The notes below the pieces were generated by a model, which was not told where the DNA came from, made no database searches, and was given only the letters and a program-made list of their open reading frames with translations. A stretch of 41,246 bases of DNA, from positions 1 through 41,246 of the forward strand of contig NZ_LXYE02000066.1 of assembly GCF_001659685.2 (NCBI RefSeq). The letters run 5' to 3'. The translations under genes and the position numbers were made by a program. Each line of letters starts with the position of its first letter. The first letter of the stretch is position 1. This document shows positions 16,677-24,035 of this stretch, piece after piece. This stretch comes from Labilibacter marinus. GTDB taxonomy: Bacteria; Bacteroidota; Bacteroidia; Bacteroidales; Marinilabiliaceae.

Positions 16677-17666
16677 TTAGAATCTTTTAATTCCAATTAT
16701 TTCTCTGAGTTCTTTAACGGTTTTTTCAGCACTAGCCTGGGCTTTTTCTCTACCCATTTTAACCACCTTGTTTAAATAATCACTATCCGCTTTTATATCT
16801 TCAATTCTTTCGCGTATTGGTGTAGTAAACTTGATGATATCCTCAGCTAATTGCTTTTTAAGATCGCCATAACGAATTTCGCAGCTAGCATATTTTTCTT
16901 GAAAAAACTGCAATGTATCTGATGTAGAAACTACATCCATCAAGGTAAATAGATTTTGAATCGGTTCTGAAACAGGTGAGTTAGGCTCTGTAGGACCACT
17001 ATCTGTAACCGCTCTCATCACCTTTTTTTGCAATGGCTTTGGCTCATCTGCCAGGTAAATTCCATTACCCTCCGATTTACCCATTTTACCCGACCCATCT
17101 AAACCTGGAATTTTAACTAATGCCTCACCATAGTTAAATGATTGAGGTATCTTAAAATAATCCTGTTTGTACATATGATTAAAACGCCCTGCAAACTTAC
17201 GTGTCATCTCCAGGTTTTGCTCCTGGTCTTTACCTACAGGTACTTTATCTGCCTTGTGAATTAAAATATCACAAGCCATTAAAACAGGATAAGTCAATAA
17301 GCCTGCATTTACATTCTCTGGTTGCTTACGAGCCTTGTCTTTAAACGAAGTGGTACGCTCCAATTCGCCCAAATATGCATTCATGCTCATTAATAAGGAC
17401 ATTTCTGCAATGGCCGGCACATCACTCTGAACATAGATAGTCGATTTTTCTGGATCCAATCCACAAGCTAAATATTCAGCTAAAACCTGGCGAACATTAT
17501 TATGCAAGTTTTCAGGCGTTGGATGGGTGGTTAATGAGTGATAATCTGCAATAAAAAAATAACAGTTATACTCATCTTGCATACGCAAAAAGTTTTTTAC
17601 CGCTCCAAAATAATTCCCTAAATGTAAGTTTCCGGTTGGCCGGATACCGCTTACTACCGTTTGCAT
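16677..17666 (-). CDS. trpS: Tryptophanyl-tRNA synthetase
   Basis: This class I aminoacyl-tRNA synthetase charges tRNA-Trp. The signatures are PTGNLHLGN at residues 10-18 (HIGH-type motif) and KMGKS at 194-198 (KMSKS-type motif). Other conserved blocks are IADYHSLTT, 'TYPVLMACDIL' and 'VPVGKDQEQNLEMTR'. The length of 329 is normal for bacterial TrpRS. It is flanked by a terminator downstream and is divergent from the cytochrome module at 17961. No leader or T-box-like element is evident upstream. Confidence 0.97.
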   Translation of the reverse strand: MQTVVSGIRPTGNLHLGNYFGAVKNFLRMQDEYNCYFFIADYHSLTTHPTPENLHNNVRQVLAEYLACGLDPEKSTIYVQSDVPAIAEMSLLMSMNAYLGELERTTSFKDKARKQPENVNAGLLTYPVLMACDILIHKADKVPVGKDQEQNLEMTRKFAGRFNHMYKQDYFKIPQSFNYGEALVKIPGLDGSGKMGKSEGNGIYLADEPKPLQKKVMRAVTDSGPTEPNSPVSEPIQNLFTLMDVVSTSDTLQFFQEKYASCEIRYGDLKKQLAEDIIKFTTPIRERIEDIKADSDYLNKVVKMGREKAQASAEKTVKELREIIGIKRF

Positions 17667-17960: not shown

Positions 17961-18317
17961 ATGAAACATACACTCCTTACTTTTTTAACCATAGCTTTGC
18001 TTATATCGTCGTGCTCTAACGACAATCAGGAAGAATTTTATGATGCGTCAGAATGCGACACTTCAAATGTTACTTTCTCAGCCACTATAGATCCTATTAT
18101 TTCCCGCAACTGTAAATCATGCCATGGTGTGGGTAATGGAACAGGCATTACCCTGGTTAGCTATAGCGACATCAAAAAACATGTGGACAATGGTAAGCTG
18201 ATGGGCTCTATAAAACATTTACCTAGCTATAGTCCAATGCCACAAGGCGGAAAACTAGATGATTGTACCATCTCCAAATTAGATGCATGGATAGCCAATG
18301 GCGCATTGGATAATTAA
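17961..18317 (+). CDS. c-type cytochrome lipoprotein
   Basis: This 118-residue protein carries a lipoprotein signal (ALLISSC, C18) and one haem c site, CKSCH at residues 51-55. A plausible distal methionine is in 'SYSPMPQGG' (M93). The layout (TIDPIISRNCKSCHG, LVSYSDIKKHVDNG, SKLDAWIANGA) is the short monohaem cytochrome type frequent in Bacteroidota and Planctomycetes surface proteins. It would sit in the outer or inner membrane leaflet facing the periplasm and carry electrons. It leads a four-gene run with gaps of 29, 26 and 11 bp, preceded by an inverted repeat. Confidence 0.88.
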   Translation: MKHTLLTFLTIALLISSCSNDNQEEFYDASECDTSNVTFSATIDPIISRNCKSCHGVGNGTGITLVSYSDIKKHVDNGKLMGSIKHLPSYSPMPQGGKLDDCTISKLDAWIANGALDN

Positions 18318-18346
18318 ACAAGCCTTCAACTATAAAAACTTATTTT

Positions 18347-19210
18347 ATGAAATACATACTATCAATACTATACATTTTTGCCATCCCGTTTTTGCTTGTT
18401 GCACAAAGCGATGATGAATTAATAGACGATTTATTGGGCGAAGAAAGCTCTGTAGTAAGTAGCACTTTTAAAACTTCTAGGGTAATCAACGGTCATTCGG
18501 TAGAGCAGCCTGCCAAAGGAGAAATGGACTTTAGAATTTCGCACCGCTTTGGTCAGTTAAACACAGGTTCCTACGATTTATGGGGATTAGATCAGGCAAC
18601 CATTCACTTTAGCTTAGAATATAGTCCGCTAGATTATTTAACTATTGGGATTGGCCGAAGTAGCTACAGAAAAACCTATGATGGATATGCCAAGCTAGCC
18701 ATTTTAAAACAACAAGCAGGTATGCCTTTCTTTTTATCTTATGTAGCCACTACCGAAATAGTCACCCTAAAAAATGAAATTCCTGATTACGAGTTTAAGC
18801 ACCGTGTAGGATATGTACACCAATTATTGATAGCCCGTAAATTTTCCAAGAACTTTAGTTTACAGCTTTCCCCAACCTTAGTTCATAAAAACCTGGTACC
18901 TGAAGCGGGTATGAAAAACAACATTATGTCCTTGGGAATTGGAGCTCGATATAAACTAAGCAAACGCCTAAGTGTAAATGCCGAAACCTTTTTAACCGAT
19001 TTTGGTCCAATGCCAGAGGGTATTGAATATCACCAGCCCATTTCTTTAGGAATAGATTTAGAAACGGGCGGTCATGTTTTCCAGATCATGGTAACCAATA
19101 GTTTACCGATGCGCGAAGTAGGTTTTATTACCGAAACTGCAGGTGACTTTTTTAAAGGAGATATCCACTTAGGGTTCAACATATCGAGAACCTTCAATTT
19201 ACACAAATAA
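18347..19210 (+). CDS. DUF5777 family beta-barrel protein
   Basis: The protein has 287 residues, with a signal peptide (MKYILSILYIFAIPFLLVAQ) and a short acidic segment (DDELIDDLLGEE). It then consists of alternating hydrophobic/polar strands to the end (FRISHRFGQLN, YLTIGIGRSSYRK, FSLQLSPTLVHK, IGARYKLSKRLSVNAE, DIHLGFNISRTF), the pattern of an outer-membrane barrel of about 12 strands. 'MDFRISHRFG' and 'ATIHFSLEYSPLDYLTIGIG' match the DUF5777 type. The function is unknown; it commonly neighbours cytochrome and YceI genes, as it does here. It probably provides an outer-membrane site for this module. Confidence 0.8.
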   Translation: MKYILSILYIFAIPFLLVAQSDDELIDDLLGEESSVVSSTFKTSRVINGHSVEQPAKGEMDFRISHRFGQLNTGSYDLWGLDQATIHFSLEYSPLDYLTIGIGRSSYRKTYDGYAKLAILKQQAGMPFFLSYVATTEIVTLKNEIPDYEFKHRVGYVHQLLIARKFSKNFSLQLSPTLVHKNLVPEAGMKNNIMSLGIGARYKLSKRLSVNAETFLTDFGPMPEGIEYHQPISLGIDLETGGHVFQIMVTNSLPMREVGFITETAGDFFKGDIHLGFNISRTFNLHK

Positions 19211-19236
19211 AGTACTGATCACTTAAAACTATTACG

Positions 19237-19779
19237 ATGAAAATATACCTATTGATGTTACTTATGCTAGGATGCACTGCATTACAAGCTCAAAAATACA
19301 TGACCAAAACAGGCTACATAAAATTTTACTCGCACTCTCCTATTGAGGATATAGAGGCAGAAAACGAGGAAGTAGCAGCAATATTAAATGGTGAAACAGG
19401 CGCGTTAACGTTTGCTTTACTCATTAAATCATTTGAATTTGAGAAAGCCCTCATGCAAGAGCATTTCAACGAAAACTATTTAGAATCGGATGAATATCCC
19501 AAAGCTATATTTAAAGGACAAATCAAAGATTTTTCATCTAAACTAGTTAAAGAGGAAGGGGAGCATAAAGTAAATGTTACAGGTGAGCTTACCCTACATG
19601 GAGAAACCAACACCATTAATGCTTCAGCCACATTAACCGTGAGTAAAGATGGCGTATTAGGTGCTACACAATTCATTGTAAAACCTGAAGACTATCGTAT
19701 TAGAATACCCAATGCTGTGCGCAACAATATTGCCAAAGAGATTGAAGTAACCGTGCGCGTTGACTTACAAGAACGCTAA
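19237..19779 (+). CDS. YceI family periplasmic protein
   Basis: The protein has 180 residues with a signal peptide ending at LQAQ. The mature part has the YceI lipocalin-like outline: TKTGYIKFYSHSPIEDIEAE, 'KSFEFEKALMQEHFNENYLE', 'YPKAIFKGQI', 'TGELTLHGETNTI' and 'EVTVRVDL'. YceI proteins bind polyisoprenoid or other lipophilic molecules, and some are linked to quinone-type electron carriers. In this operon, between two haem proteins, binding of an isoprenoid quinone is an attractive but unproven idea. It overlaps nothing; the next gene begins 11 bp later. Confidence 0.88.
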   Translation: MKIYLLMLLMLGCTALQAQKYMTKTGYIKFYSHSPIEDIEAENEEVAAILNGETGALTFALLIKSFEFEKALMQEHFNENYLESDEYPKAIFKGQIKDFSSKLVKEEGEHKVNVTGELTLHGETNTINASATLTVSKDGVLGATQFIVKPEDYRIRIPNAVRNNIAKEIEVTVRVDLQER

Positions 19780-19790
19780 AAACAAATGCC

Positions 19791-20219
19791 ATGAATAAAA
19801 AGATAATCTTACTGTTTATAGGCGCCATTGCTATTTCTGCAGGAATTATTGCCTACCTGCAATACAATAAACCTCATATCAATTACGAAAAAGCTTCTGT
19901 TGATTTAACAACAACAGCTGATGCTTTATTACAGGCTTTTGAGCATAACGAAACAATTGCCAATCAGCAGTATTTAAACAGGGTGGTTGAGGTTAGTGGC
20001 AAACCTATTTCGGCTCATACAAATCCCAACGGATCGGTAACCATTGCATTGCTCGATGAGCTGCAAGGTGTTTCCTGCACATTTGATTCCGCTTACGTAA
20101 GCCAACACCTCAGTTCTTTTGCTCAGGTTAAAGAAGTAAGCTCACTTGTTATAAAAGGAAGGTGCGATGGCTTTTTAACGGATGTAAGACTATCCAAGTG
20201 CTCATTCACTCATAAATAA
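19791..20219 (+). CDS. Membrane-anchored OB-fold (tRNA_anti-like) protein
   Basis: This 142-residue protein has an N-terminal membrane anchor (residues 4-23, IILLFIGAIAISAGIIAYLQ). The C-terminal OB-like barrel (~55-142) includes 'YLNRVVEVSGKPISAHTNPN', 'SVTIALLDELQGVSCTF' and 'LVIKGRCDGFLTDVRLSKC'. This is the tRNA_anti-like family of Bacteroidota; despite the name there is no evidence that it binds RNA, and the domain faces the periplasm. It is the last of four tightly packed genes and may assist assembly of the module. Two cysteines in the last third could form a disulfide. Confidence 0.75.
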   Translation: MNKKIILLFIGAIAISAGIIAYLQYNKPHINYEKASVDLTTTADALLQAFEHNETIANQQYLNRVVEVSGKPISAHTNPNGSVTIALLDELQGVSCTFDSAYVSQHLSSFAQVKEVSSLVIKGRCDGFLTDVRLSKCSFTHK

Positions 20220-20241
20220 ACCAATGACTTTTTTATTAACC

Positions 20242-20306
20242 ATAGAATAGTTTAGCGCAACAGGACTTCAATGCACGCAAGTTTTAAGGCGCTCACGCTA
20301 TTCTAT
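20242..20306 (+). promoter_or_regulatory. Intercistronic hairpin before the cytochrome P460-like gene
   Basis: ATAGAATAG (20242-20250) and CTATTCTAT (20298-20306) are exact reverse complements, with AGCGC/GCGCT (20254-20258, 20289-20293) nested inside. It fills most of the 102-bp gap between the OB-fold gene and 20322 and has no T-run. It may be a processing or stability element, or the leader of the last gene. Confidence 0.5.
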
Positions 20307-20321
20307 AAAAACCATAATTAA

Positions 20322-20861
20322 ATGAAAGTAAATAATGTATTTAAGACAATGGCTATGTTATTAGCCGTAACTCTTTTTGTGAGTTGTTCAGATGACGATG
20401 ACAAAAAAGATGAAGGTCCTGATGAAATTATGATTACGCAAGCACAGTTGAATGCAGCCACCAACATGTTAGCAACAGAAACTGGAGGTACGTTTGCTCA
20501 TGGTGGTCCGGATGGTACAACAGGTAGTGAAACCGTGCGTAAAATATATTCATCCGTGACAGATCTCGACGGCACAATTGCTCCTGGTACTATCGTTACT
20601 AAAAAAACGTATGCTTTAGATGGCGAGGGTAATATGGGTAATTTATACGTTTCGTTTGCCATGGTAAAACGCGAGCCGGGTTATGATACAGCCAATAAAG
20701 ATTGGGAGTATATGAAAATTGGCTTTGATGCAGACAACGATTATGATGCCAATCCGTTTGGTATGTTACCTGCAGAAGGTAGTGCTGATCGTGGTAAGTT
20801 AGCAGGATGTATTGGTTGCCATACCGGAGCAGGAGGCGGCGACTTTTTGTTTGTGAACTAA
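20322..20861 (+). CDS. Cytochrome P460-like haem lipoprotein
   Basis: This 179-residue protein has a lipoprotein signal (TLFVSC, C22), an aspartate-rich linker (SDDDDKKDEG), then a cytochrome P460-type domain: 'LYVSFAMVKREPGYDTANKD', then WEYMKIGFD. The C-terminal haem c site is CIGCH at residues 163-167 (GKLAGCIGCHTGAGGGD). P460 proteins oxidise hydroxylamine or act on nitric oxide in nitrifiers and methanotrophs, through a lysine-haem crosslink. Whether this one keeps the crosslinking lysine cannot be settled by eye (K in AMVK is one candidate). It is followed by a terminator, and preceded by the four-gene cytochrome/DUF5777/YceI/OB run, probably the same transcript. Confidence 0.78.
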   Translation: MKVNNVFKTMAMLLAVTLFVSCSDDDDKKDEGPDEIMITQAQLNAATNMLATETGGTFAHGGPDGTTGSETVRKIYSSVTDLDGTIAPGTIVTKKTYALDGEGNMGNLYVSFAMVKREPGYDTANKDWEYMKIGFDADNDYDANPFGMLPAEGSADRGKLAGCIGCHTGAGGGDFLFVN

Positions 20862-20886: not shown

Positions 20887-20922
20887 AAGGCTCATTGGAA
20901 TTTTCCGATGAGCCTTCTTTTT
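20887..20922 (+). terminator. Terminator of the cytochrome module
   Basis: AAGGCTCAT (20887-20895) pairs with ATGAGCCTT (20908-20916), GGAA pairs with TTCC inside, and CTTTTT follows. It starts 25 bp past the stop at 20861. Confidence 0.85.
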
Positions 20923-21768: not shown

Positions 21769-22914
21769 TTAAATTTTCAAACCCTTCCTTAAGTCCAACT
21801 CTATCTTTTTATCCCACAAGCGATTTAACACCTGTAAAGATTGTTTCTTATATTTTTCAGCTAATTCGTCCTCTCCTATCTTTTTATATAGTTTGCTTAA
21901 CTTATTTAAAGTAGGTAAGTGAATATCATTTATTTGCAAACAAATTTTAAGCTGATCGATTGCCTCTTGATAGTAACCTGTAGCTTCTAGTCTTTCGGCT
22001 TGCTGTAAATGAAGTTCCAGTTCAGAAATATCGTTATCAATTTTAAGCTCAATAATGTCCTCTGTTTTTGTTACTATTAAAGAACAATGTAGTTCCTTAA
22101 TGATTAATTCGGTAACACTACCTAGTACCATTCTTTGCAAATAAGATTTACCTGTAGCTCCCATAAAAATTAAATCAATACCATTTTGCTTGCTAAAGGA
22201 TAATATTTCGGAGTGAGGTTTTCCTTTTAATACAAACACCTCATAATCTACGTCAGTAAAGTCAAAATCTTTTAAAAATGCATCTAACTCTTCTTTATTT
22301 TCCTTCTTTAGCTTATCATTTTCCTCATCATAATCAATTTCAAGGCGGATGGATAAGCGCTCTTGCAATGGCTCAAAAACATTTACTACAAACAACTTCG
22401 ATCCAAAGGTTCTTGCTAATTTAATGGCATTATTTAAGGCTGTTGCTGAGGCCGTTGAAAAATCAACAGGACAAAGCACCTGTTTTACCTCATTAATGCT
22501 TTCAGAATCTACAAACAATACAGGCTTTAATGATCGCTGTAATATTTTCTCAGAATGTACATTAACCTTCTTATCTTCCTTAAAATACTCGGCACTTTTA
22601 GTTACCACAATTAAATTCACATCCTCTTTTTCCGAAAGATGAATAATTTGATCTAATGGATTTCCGTACTGAATGATGCTTCGGGCTTTAATACCTTTTG
22701 CCTGCAATTCATCAACAAACGCTTGCAGTTTGGGCTCGGCATAACGAAGCACTATTGAATTAATGGAATTTAGCTTTGCCTCCTTAGGCAGTACATGAAG
22801 TAACAATAATTCAGATTGCATTTTACTGGCCAATTTAGAGGCTGCAAAAATTTGCTTTGTAATAGCTGTATTTTCTAAATCTATTGGGACTAATATTTTT
22901 TCTAATAGTTTCAT
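21769..22914 (-). CDS. Tandem universal stress protein with C-terminal TPR segment
   Basis: I chose the ATG at 22912-22914 (381 residues), which opens the classical first strand MKLLEKILVPIDLENTAIT; an in-frame ATG at 22959 adds an unlikely hydrophobic extension. There are two UspA domains: ~1-145 ('LLLLHVLPKE', 'IIQYGNPLDQI') and ~146-285 (VKQVLCPVDFSTASATALNN). The second ends with the ATP-binding motif type GATGKSYLQRMVLGSVTE. The last ~90 residues are helical TPR-like units (LEATGYYQEAIDQLKICLQI; LSKLYKKIGEDELAEKYKKQ). Usp proteins bind ATP or AMP in stress and starvation. The TPR fusion suggests a protein partner. It is a single gene, divergent from 23172. Confidence 0.88.
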   Translation of the reverse strand: MKLLEKILVPIDLENTAITKQIFAASKLASKMQSELLLLHVLPKEAKLNSINSIVLRYAEPKLQAFVDELQAKGIKARSIIQYGNPLDQIIHLSEKEDVNLIVVTKSAEYFKEDKKVNVHSEKILQRSLKPVLFVDSESINEVKQVLCPVDFSTASATALNNAIKLARTFGSKLFVVNVFEPLQERLSIRLEIDYDEENDKLKKENKEELDAFLKDFDFTDVDYEVFVLKGKPHSEILSFSKQNGIDLIFMGATGKSYLQRMVLGSVTELIIKELHCSLIVTKTEDIIELKIDNDISELELHLQQAERLEATGYYQEAIDQLKICLQINDIHLPTLNKLSKLYKKIGEDELAEKYKKQSLQVLNRLWDKKIELDLRKGLKI

Positions 22915-23171
22915 TGGTATAATAATTTGTAAAACGCTTATAGCCAACGCAAAATACAATCACATTTCAATATGCTTGATTATTTGCTTTGGATATGTCT
23001 GTTTCGTCTTTTAAGTTTTCAACATTAAAACTAGTCATTATGTTCATGCTACGCAATTGGGCTCTATTATTTATAGATTAATAATACAATTTAAACCACA
23101 TTACACAAAACAAGCCACTAATATAAAAGAGTTCGCAGATTTTTATTATTTTGAAAACAAAAATCTATACT

Positions 23172-23633: not shown

Positions 23634-24035
23634 TTAAGCAGTCTTATCGTATAGCTTATACAGAATATTTTCCTCTCTGCTTATTCTACCCGCTAGCGTG
23701 GATACTAATTTACCAAAGTTCTGAGCGTACTCCATAGGTGTAAACGCATCCTTTTCTATCTGATCGAAAAAGAACAGCACAAATTGGGTGATCTCATCCA
23801 TATCCTGAGCAAATATTTTGAGTTTCCTCTCACAATCCTCATCCGTTTCTCCCCGTTTTTTCAATGAAGGATATAATTCTTTATCTTCTTTATGTAGGTG
23901 GAGCAATAAAGCTCCTTTGGCTTGTATAAGTAGTTCCTTAGATTCTTCTGATGAAACACCTAAAGACTTTACTTTAGTCAGTATTTCAACTAAAGCAGCA
24001 TGCTCTTTTTTTAATTGTTCAATCAAGTTGCTCAT
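23634..24035 (-). CDS. Hemerythrin-fold (HHE) protein with incomplete metal site
   Basis: This 133-residue four-helix protein has the N-terminal H12 (KKEHAAL) and the helix-B pair H46/H48 with E50 and E53 (LLLHLHKEDKELYP), as in hemerythrin HHE proteins. The second half (MEYAQNFGKLVSTLAGRISR, EENILYKLYD) has the family's helical pattern but no histidine at all after residue 48. A canonical non-haem di-iron site needs further histidines there. It may therefore bind one metal or none, and act as a sensor or a relic. Single gene on the minus strand. Confidence 0.75.
   Translation of the reverse strand: MSNLIEQLKKEHAALVEILTKVKSLGVSSEESKELLIQAKGALLLHLHKEDKELYPSLKKRGETDEDCERKLKIFAQDMDEITQFVLFFFDQIEKDAFTPMEYAQNFGKLVSTLAGRISREENILYKLYDKTA

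Follow-up and report, generated by a model that had tools for sequence, protein, structure and literature searches.

A widespread Bacteroidota operon of a DUF5777 outer-membrane barrel, a redox lipoprotein and a YceI lipocalin, accompanied in Labilibacter marinus by a P460-like gene

Introduction

What is the task of a tight run of genes for two haem lipoproteins, an outer-membrane barrel, a YceI-family lipocalin and an OB-fold protein, and do all five belong together? The question is raised by positions 17961–20861 of a 41,246-nucleotide stretch of Labilibacter marinus DNA (contig NZ_LXYE02000066.1, forward strand), which as a whole is referred to as the window. An earlier note, made from the sequence, had treated the five genes as one haem module, either a periplasm-to-surface electron route or a nitrogen-oxide detoxification unit. 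Judged by gene content, 17961–20219 belongs to an operon type that is widespread in Bacteroidota. The core of this operon is composed of a cytochrome lipoprotein, a DUF5777 barrel and YceI, less often joined by the OB-fold protein, and the P460-like gene is an add-on. With slightly less than even confidence, we favour one-electron transfer at the outer membrane as the role of the core operon.

The five open reading frames lie on the plus strand where the earlier note had placed them, separated by gaps of 29, 26, 11 and 102 bp:

17961–18317, plus strand: c-type cytochrome lipoprotein, 118 residues; lipobox Cys18; haem motif CKSCH at residues 51–55 (18111–18125)
18347–19210, plus strand: DUF5777 outer-membrane beta-barrel, 287 residues, 12 predicted strands
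19237–19779, plus strand: YceI-family lipocalin, 180 residues; signal peptide by eye; Pfam E value 2.4e-14
19791–20219, plus strand: OB-fold protein (tRNA_anti-like), 142 residues, probably periplasmic; N-terminal hydrophobic anchor; Pfam E value 7.3e-16
20220–20321, plus strand: 102-bp gap separating the core from the P460-like gene; contains a strong hairpin
20322–20861, plus strand: P460/c'-beta superfamily lipoprotein, 179 residues; lipobox Cys22, then SDDDD
Sites in the P460-like protein: Lys94 (20601–20603), Phe112 (20655–20657), CIGCH at residues 163–167 (20808–20822)
20887–20916, plus strand: terminator-like hairpin, then a T-rich tail

Three of the proteins pass their Pfam cut-offs, namely DUF5777 (PF19089; E value 3.5e-87, 292.2 bits against a cut-off of 23.1), YceI and tRNA_anti-like. 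The matches to Cytochrome_P460 (3.7e-4, 21.3 bits) and Cytochrome_CBB3 (2.6e-4, 21.7 bits) fall below the cut-off of 27 bits. Both haem-protein assignments are based on CxxCH motifs, of which each protein has one, and on lipoprotein signals, and that of the P460-like protein also on a family profile. The N-terminus of the OB-fold protein looks by eye like a membrane anchor and not like a cleavable signal.

Results

The four-gene core recurs across Bacteroidota

DUF5777 was found in 82 of the 198 genomes searched across the phylum and in 61 of the 149 searched in the window's order. Around its genes we took loci of up to 16 kb, where contigs allowed, labelled the neighbours by means of profiles built on the window proteins and on recurrent neighbours, and defined a run as same-strand genes with gaps of up to 200 bp. 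Requiring a called frame and more than 60 bits for DUF5777 gave 135 loci, 100 from the phylum sample (including the window and the truncated contig L008) and 35 from the order sample. This set leans to typical members because rows were left out and the order rows are top-scoring: five partial or weak phylum matches (G119:C180, G082, G047, G159 and G074) were omitted, L033 and L068 have no called DUF5777 frame, L103 is below 60 bits, and the order sample supplied 36 of 93 rows, all within the 40 top-scoring, with L195 lacking a called frame. A second set, from named genomes, holds 83 DUF5777 genes and was drawn from the 80 top matches out of at least 590. Four genes are shared by the two sets and are counted twice in the total of 218.

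Among the 135 runs, the cytochrome family is present in 104, YceI in 102, the OB-fold protein in 43, and a P460-like gene in three, the window included. The 83 named-genome runs contain the cytochrome in 67 cases, YceI in 65, the OB-fold protein in 56, and P460 in none. As a control, 20 loci of other genomes that are anchored on P460-like genes were labelled with the same profiles, which yielded no cytochrome, no DUF5777 and two YceI genes. Clustering of the core genes hence exceeds chance (104 and 102 of 135 versus 0 and 2 of 20). Adjacent core genes often overlap or are separated by only a few bases, with a median gap of 3 bp between YceI and DUF5777 (115 pairs) and of 12 bp between cytochrome and DUF5777 (63 pairs). 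Their order is shuffled between lineages: cytochrome-YceI-DUF5777 occurs 39 times, cytochrome-OB-YceI-DUF5777 19 times and cytochrome-DUF5777-YceI-OB nine times, and further versions include a second cytochrome. Constant membership despite shuffled order is the pattern expected from selection for joint function.

The named hosts include Salibacter, Aquimarina, Tenacibaculum, Polaribacter, Fulvivirga, Pontibacter, Rufibacter, Flammeovirga, Prolixibacteraceae and Saprospiraceae. In Flammeovirga, both loci carry YceI together with a lipoprotein that was not assigned, and no cytochrome was recognised. Conservation of gene order in Bacteroidota, which the earlier note had put forward as a test, is found for the four-gene core, and the genes for the outer-membrane barrel and for redox lipoproteins recur as a conserved set in both the 135-locus and the 83-gene sets. 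The view that all five genes form one module holds for the four-gene core and is not supported for the P460-like gene.

Redox lipoproteins are exchanged in the cytochrome slot

A Rieske lipoprotein is found in eight of the 135 runs, seven of which lack the cytochrome; Pfam confirmed the assignment for L129, L086 and L109. At L058, the cytochrome slot is occupied by a Pfam-confirmed cupredoxin. The cupredoxin label ('plasto') also picked up proteins because of their secretion tail, and Pfam confirmed L110 and L058 only, so that cupredoxin counts are upper limits; the 'DOMON' label has the same flaw. The exchange of the cytochrome for a Rieske protein or a cupredoxin points to one-electron transfer, not gas binding, as the common property.

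A direct link between cytochrome and barrel is seen at L101:7575–8807 (genome G030, a single contig), where a CX4CH cytochrome (residues 44–140) and DUF5777 (residues 161–409) share one 411-residue frame, and a second cytochrome-like match adjoins the fusion. A related copy in G601 is truncated by the end of its contig. Since a barrel with an even number of strands is expected to have its N-terminus in the periplasm, the haem of the L101 protein would sit at the inner mouth. The haem motif of the module cytochromes is CX2CH in 97 of 133 cases and CX4CH in 36. Cytochromes with CX4CH, a putative haem motif, occur at L034, L042–L046, L051, L121 and other loci.

A tail resembling CYYDNEEELYP recurs behind the lipobox of short module cytochromes (e.g. 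L180:26–400). In 153 short lipobox cytochromes, its residues were counted as Y 68 and 69, D 88, E 83 and 78, L 69, and P 65. Each position is thus kept in about three to six of ten sequences, whereas the usual lipoprotein linker is variable. This tail could be a docking motif; the window cytochrome has a divergent form of it.

Beyond the core, the redox neighbours in other lineages are EB_dh (five of the 135 runs), diheme cytochromes, Fer4/NrfD clusters, second cytochromes and cupredoxins. A DUF5777 subtype at L064, L067, L069, L070, L074, L080 and L376 is accompanied by Fer4, NrfD and a further c-type cytochrome, with EB_dh in four of these seven loci and YceI in view in none; the Fer4 and NrfD genes of L376 were judged by size and look only. 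Perhaps these clusters represent a larger respiratory complex of which the same barrel is a part. Lipoprotein_15 repeat proteins lie directly upstream of the module cytochrome at L225, L232, L250 and L254, in Tenacibaculum, Fulvivirga and Aquimarina (L232 and L250 confirmed by Pfam, the others judged by eye).

A possible electron route at the outer membrane

The DUF5777 protein was modelled as a 12-strand barrel with a predicted local distance difference test score (pLDDT) of 88. The YceI family profile matches solved YceI proteins (best 5ixg, E value 1.7e-9), and that of the OB-fold family matches 3f1z (1.9e-5). YceI lipocalins bind isoprenoids including ubiquinone-8.

We favour the one-electron reading because of the Rieske and cupredoxin exchange, the L101 fusion, and the precedents of YceI proteins with cytochromes. 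In the proposed mechanism, the cytochrome would dock at the DUF5777 barrel, as the single polypeptide of L101 suggests; YceI would carry an isoprenoid quinone or another hydrophobic redox ligand in the periplasm; and the OB-fold protein would serve as an inner-membrane assembly or docking factor. The quinone pool would exchange electrons, in either direction, with the redox lipoprotein at the barrel, which in turn would pass them to or receive them from surface partners that vary with lineage, i.e. second cytochromes, EB_dh, cupredoxins or Lipoprotein_15 repeats. In the window, the surface partner may be the P460-like protein.

Several points weigh against this proposal. A 12-strand barrel is narrow, and on the model a monohaem cytochrome would not be expected to span the membrane, so conduction across it is unproven. 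The structural matches of DUF5777 are generic barrels of 12 strands and similar, none of the families listed among its structural neighbours hints at a function, and its profile retrieved no solved relative at an E value of 0.1. The cytochrome–DUF5777 fusion occurs once among the 218 DUF5777 genes. Nine of the 135 runs have no cytochrome, YceI, OB-fold protein, Rieske protein or cupredoxin, although two of them are short contigs (L008 and L094) and one is the L101 fusion itself. A constant enzyme partner was not found, as no Pfam family exceeded four among the 96 of 140 unlabelled run neighbours scanned, with 25 of 128 families listed. We know of no ligand of the module's YceI proteins, and the antioxidant role discussed below accounts for YceI equally well.

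A more specific proposal is an unnamed outer-membrane electron route that dispenses with a multihaem conduit. The 12-strand barrel would bear at its mouth an exchangeable lipoprotein that carries single electrons, by haem c, a Rieske centre or copper, and would work with a quinone-carrying YceI; the window would add a surface P460-type terminal partner. In this full form, we regard it as rather unlikely.

The P460-like protein appears to be a local partner

The family profile built from six members of the P460-like family has cytochromes P460 as its best solved matches (6e0y, E value 8.1e-4), whereas the window sequence alone matched no P460 structure. On this profile evidence, the protein is assigned to the P460/c'-beta superfamily. 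Its AlphaFold2 model is poor (pLDDT 55.5); a structural search with it placed 6hih, a c'-beta protein, at rank 2 (E value 0.27, probability 0.82) and was not relied on.

We then compared 32 P460-like sequences, among them those of L157–L161, L306–L325 and L368–L373, loci that were taken because of P460. Six order loci are P460-anchored, and one of them, L370, has no called P460 frame and is outside the 32. L158, which is among them, has no CxxCH and looks truncated or chimeric. Lower-scoring matches, many spanning the signal peptide region only, are also outside the 32. In the alignment with 6e0y, Lys94 falls on the lysine of GTVIVK, which is residue 106 after a shift by 27 to 6amg numbering; by the same count, the residue mutated in 6e0x and 6e0y is number 131, as expected. 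Lys106 is the haem cross-linking residue of NsP460 (PMC11928373). In the family alignment, this lysine is kept in all 32 sequences, as are His60 and the CxxCH histidine, and 31 of them retain both CxxCH cysteines.

The distal carboxylate of hydroxylamine-oxidising cytochromes P460 is Glu96 in NeP460 and Asp102 in McP460, with Ala131 at this place in NsP460 (PMC11928373). The aligned position is Phe112 in the window protein and is acidic in none of the 32 sequences (Tyr in 15, Phe in six, Thr in six, Leu in three, Val in two), and hydroxylamine oxidation is therefore unlikely. NsP460 itself is described in the same source as having a hydrophobic pocket, no hydroxylamine oxidation and no determined function (PMC11928373). 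The window protein is best described as a putative lysine-bearing, non-carboxylate member of the superfamily, for which a cross-link is not claimed, and a gas-binding or peroxidase-type haem protein appears more likely than a hydroxylamine oxidase.

The mature protein starts with C-SDDDD, that is, a polar residue and then acidic residues after the lipidated cysteine. SDDDD is hypothesised as a surface-lipoprotein export signal for B. fragilis (PMC5080379), and from it the P460-like protein is predicted to be surface-exposed.

P460-like genes stand beside the module in three of the 32 cases, the window included. The five-gene order of the window recurs once, at L157 (genome G315), which belongs to the same order under another family label and whose P460-like protein is 51% identical to that of the window. 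A permuted order, P460-cytochrome-DUF5777-YceI, is seen at L186. In G608, a genome of the same genus, the run is EB_dh-cytochrome-DUF5777-YceI-OB without P460 (L375). From this distribution, P460 looks like a local partner, comparable to EB_dh, second cytochromes, cupredoxins and Lipoprotein_15 repeats.

Alternative functions

The core could instead be an envelope antioxidant unit, in which quinol bound to YceI quenches lipid peroxyl radicals of the outer membrane and is then regenerated by the redox lipoprotein, as a Bacteroidota counterpart of BcnA-LcoA. YceI is indeed a core member, with its 102 of 135 runs, and mutants in bcnA, of the YceI family, and in lcoA have raised lipid peroxidation (PMC9113575). 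All nine sampled genomes that lack COX1 also lack DUF5777, but eight of the nine belong to family f17, in which none of the 43 genomes has DUF5777. The ten window proteins scanned include no cytochrome b561, and the conserved barrel and the surface-type P460-like lipoprotein would be left unexplained. We consider this explanation unlikely.

Less probable still is reductive metal handling, i.e. reduction of ferric or cupric ions at the surface for uptake or detoxification. Consistent with it, genes for extracytoplasmic function (ECF)-type sigma factors, TonB receptors and FecR are found in 11, five and three of the 135 runs, respectively, upstream in all cases but one, and L036 has a HlyD/CusB-like gene close to the module. 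A YceI-like gene also appears in an RNA sequencing table of Riemerella under iron limitation (PMC5429918). Such neighbours are a small minority, however, and none is among the five genes or the scanned window neighbours.

A nitrogen-oxide detoxification unit centred on the P460-like protein would be consistent with its membership in the superfamily by profile, with the binding of nitric oxide by c'-beta proteins (PMC11928373) and with the nrfA gene of the host. Against these stand the presence of P460 in just three of the 135 runs, the missing acid at the aligned carboxylate position in all 32 sequences, and the lack of robust co-occurrence. The co-occurrence tests used 77 clear DUF5777 genomes, after five weak ones of the 82 were dropped, and 31 full-length nrfA matches from the 59 genomes listed. 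Across the 198 genomes, DUF5777 was associated with nosZ (p = 0.011), but the signal is due to family f17, and it vanished without this family (p = 0.87) and within the class (p = 0.75). No association was found with nrfA (p = 0.43) or PF16694 (p = 0.79). The host genome has a haem-copper oxidase besides nrfA, no nosZ match, and no PF16694 match at an E value of 0.001. This part of the earlier note is weakly supported, and we regard it as very improbable. Aerobiosis was also considered as a correlate and was set aside, as COX1 is present in 189 of the 198 genomes and hardly discriminates.

Equally doubtful is the idea that the module feeds electrons to oxidative enzymes that are secreted, for instance polysaccharide mono-oxygenases, since no such family stands out among the 96 neighbours scanned (25 of 128 families listed). 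A role of this kind has been suggested for Cbp2D/E: Cbp2D combines a YceI-like domain with two domains of the cytochrome c type, and its cytochrome domain CjX183 gives electrons to lytic polysaccharide mono-oxygenases in vitro (PMC8981238).

Flanking and regulatory features of the window

A tRNA-synt_1b gene (class I synthetase, for W or Y) lies upstream at 16677–17666 in the opposite direction, and the operon therefore begins shortly upstream of 17961. The 102-bp gap ahead of the P460-like gene forms a hairpin of −22.2 kcal/mol (z score −4.2; none of 200 shuffles was equally good) without a T-run. It has one copy in the genome, which rules out a genomic repeat, and the matching junction in L157 is 26 bp. 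The shared terminator of the earlier note corresponds to the hairpin at 20887–20916, which is present; as the scan gave nine sites in 5.5 kb versus 3.9 expected, its role as a terminator is suggestive only. No Rfam element in the window reached the gathering score. Promoter scans did no better than chance, both for sigma-70 (16 found versus 20.4 expected) and for TAnnTTTG (58 versus 60.2), which we take to be a Bacteroidota −7 element. Outside the operon, a frame at 23634–24035 resembles by eye a hemerythrin-type HHE protein, and not far from it is a universal stress protein gene at 21769–22959.

Comparison with known systems

The component families are known, and their recurrent combination appears to be unnamed. 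In the open-access literature searched, we found no paper with DUF5777 or PF19089 and none combining YceI, extracellular electron transfer and Bacteroidota; subscription papers were outside this scope. The function of lipocalins in bacteria has been called unclear (PMC9113575). If DUF5777 does have an electron-handling role at the outer membrane, an unrecognised redox interface would exist in a large environmental phylum, in which 82 of 198 sampled genomes have DUF5777, and a possible setting for YceI lipocalins would become directly testable.

Cyc2 of iron oxidisers likewise joins a monohaem c-type domain to an outer-membrane barrel, and in L101 the cytochrome is fused at the barrel N-terminus too. 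Cyc2 is predicted to have 16 strands (PMC8406198), whereas 12 are modelled for DUF5777, which usually goes with a separate lipoprotein cytochrome, as in the window, and mostly with YceI. MtrCAB also combines a barrel with cytochromes at the outer membrane, but its barrel has 26 strands and its cytochromes are decahaem (PMC8406198), compared with 12 strands and a monohaem protein here.

In BcnA-LcoA, a YceI lipocalin is genetically linked to a cytochrome, b561 (PMC9113575); LcoA is a membrane b561, while the present operon has a c-type lipoprotein and a barrel. Cbp2D and Cbp2E of Cellvibrio share the YceI-like domain and, in Cbp2D, also c-type cytochrome domains, two in number (PMC8981238), but they are multidomain proteins with a carbohydrate-binding module, and the excerpts of that paper mention no barrel. 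Finally, the P460-like protein resembles the P460/c'-beta proteins in its profile match, its C-terminal CxxCH and the lysine aligned with Lys106 of NsP460. It lacks an acid of the Glu96/Asp102 type, as does the 'halfway house' NsP460 with its Ala131 (PMC11928373), and differs from these proteins in being a lipoprotein with an export-type signal.

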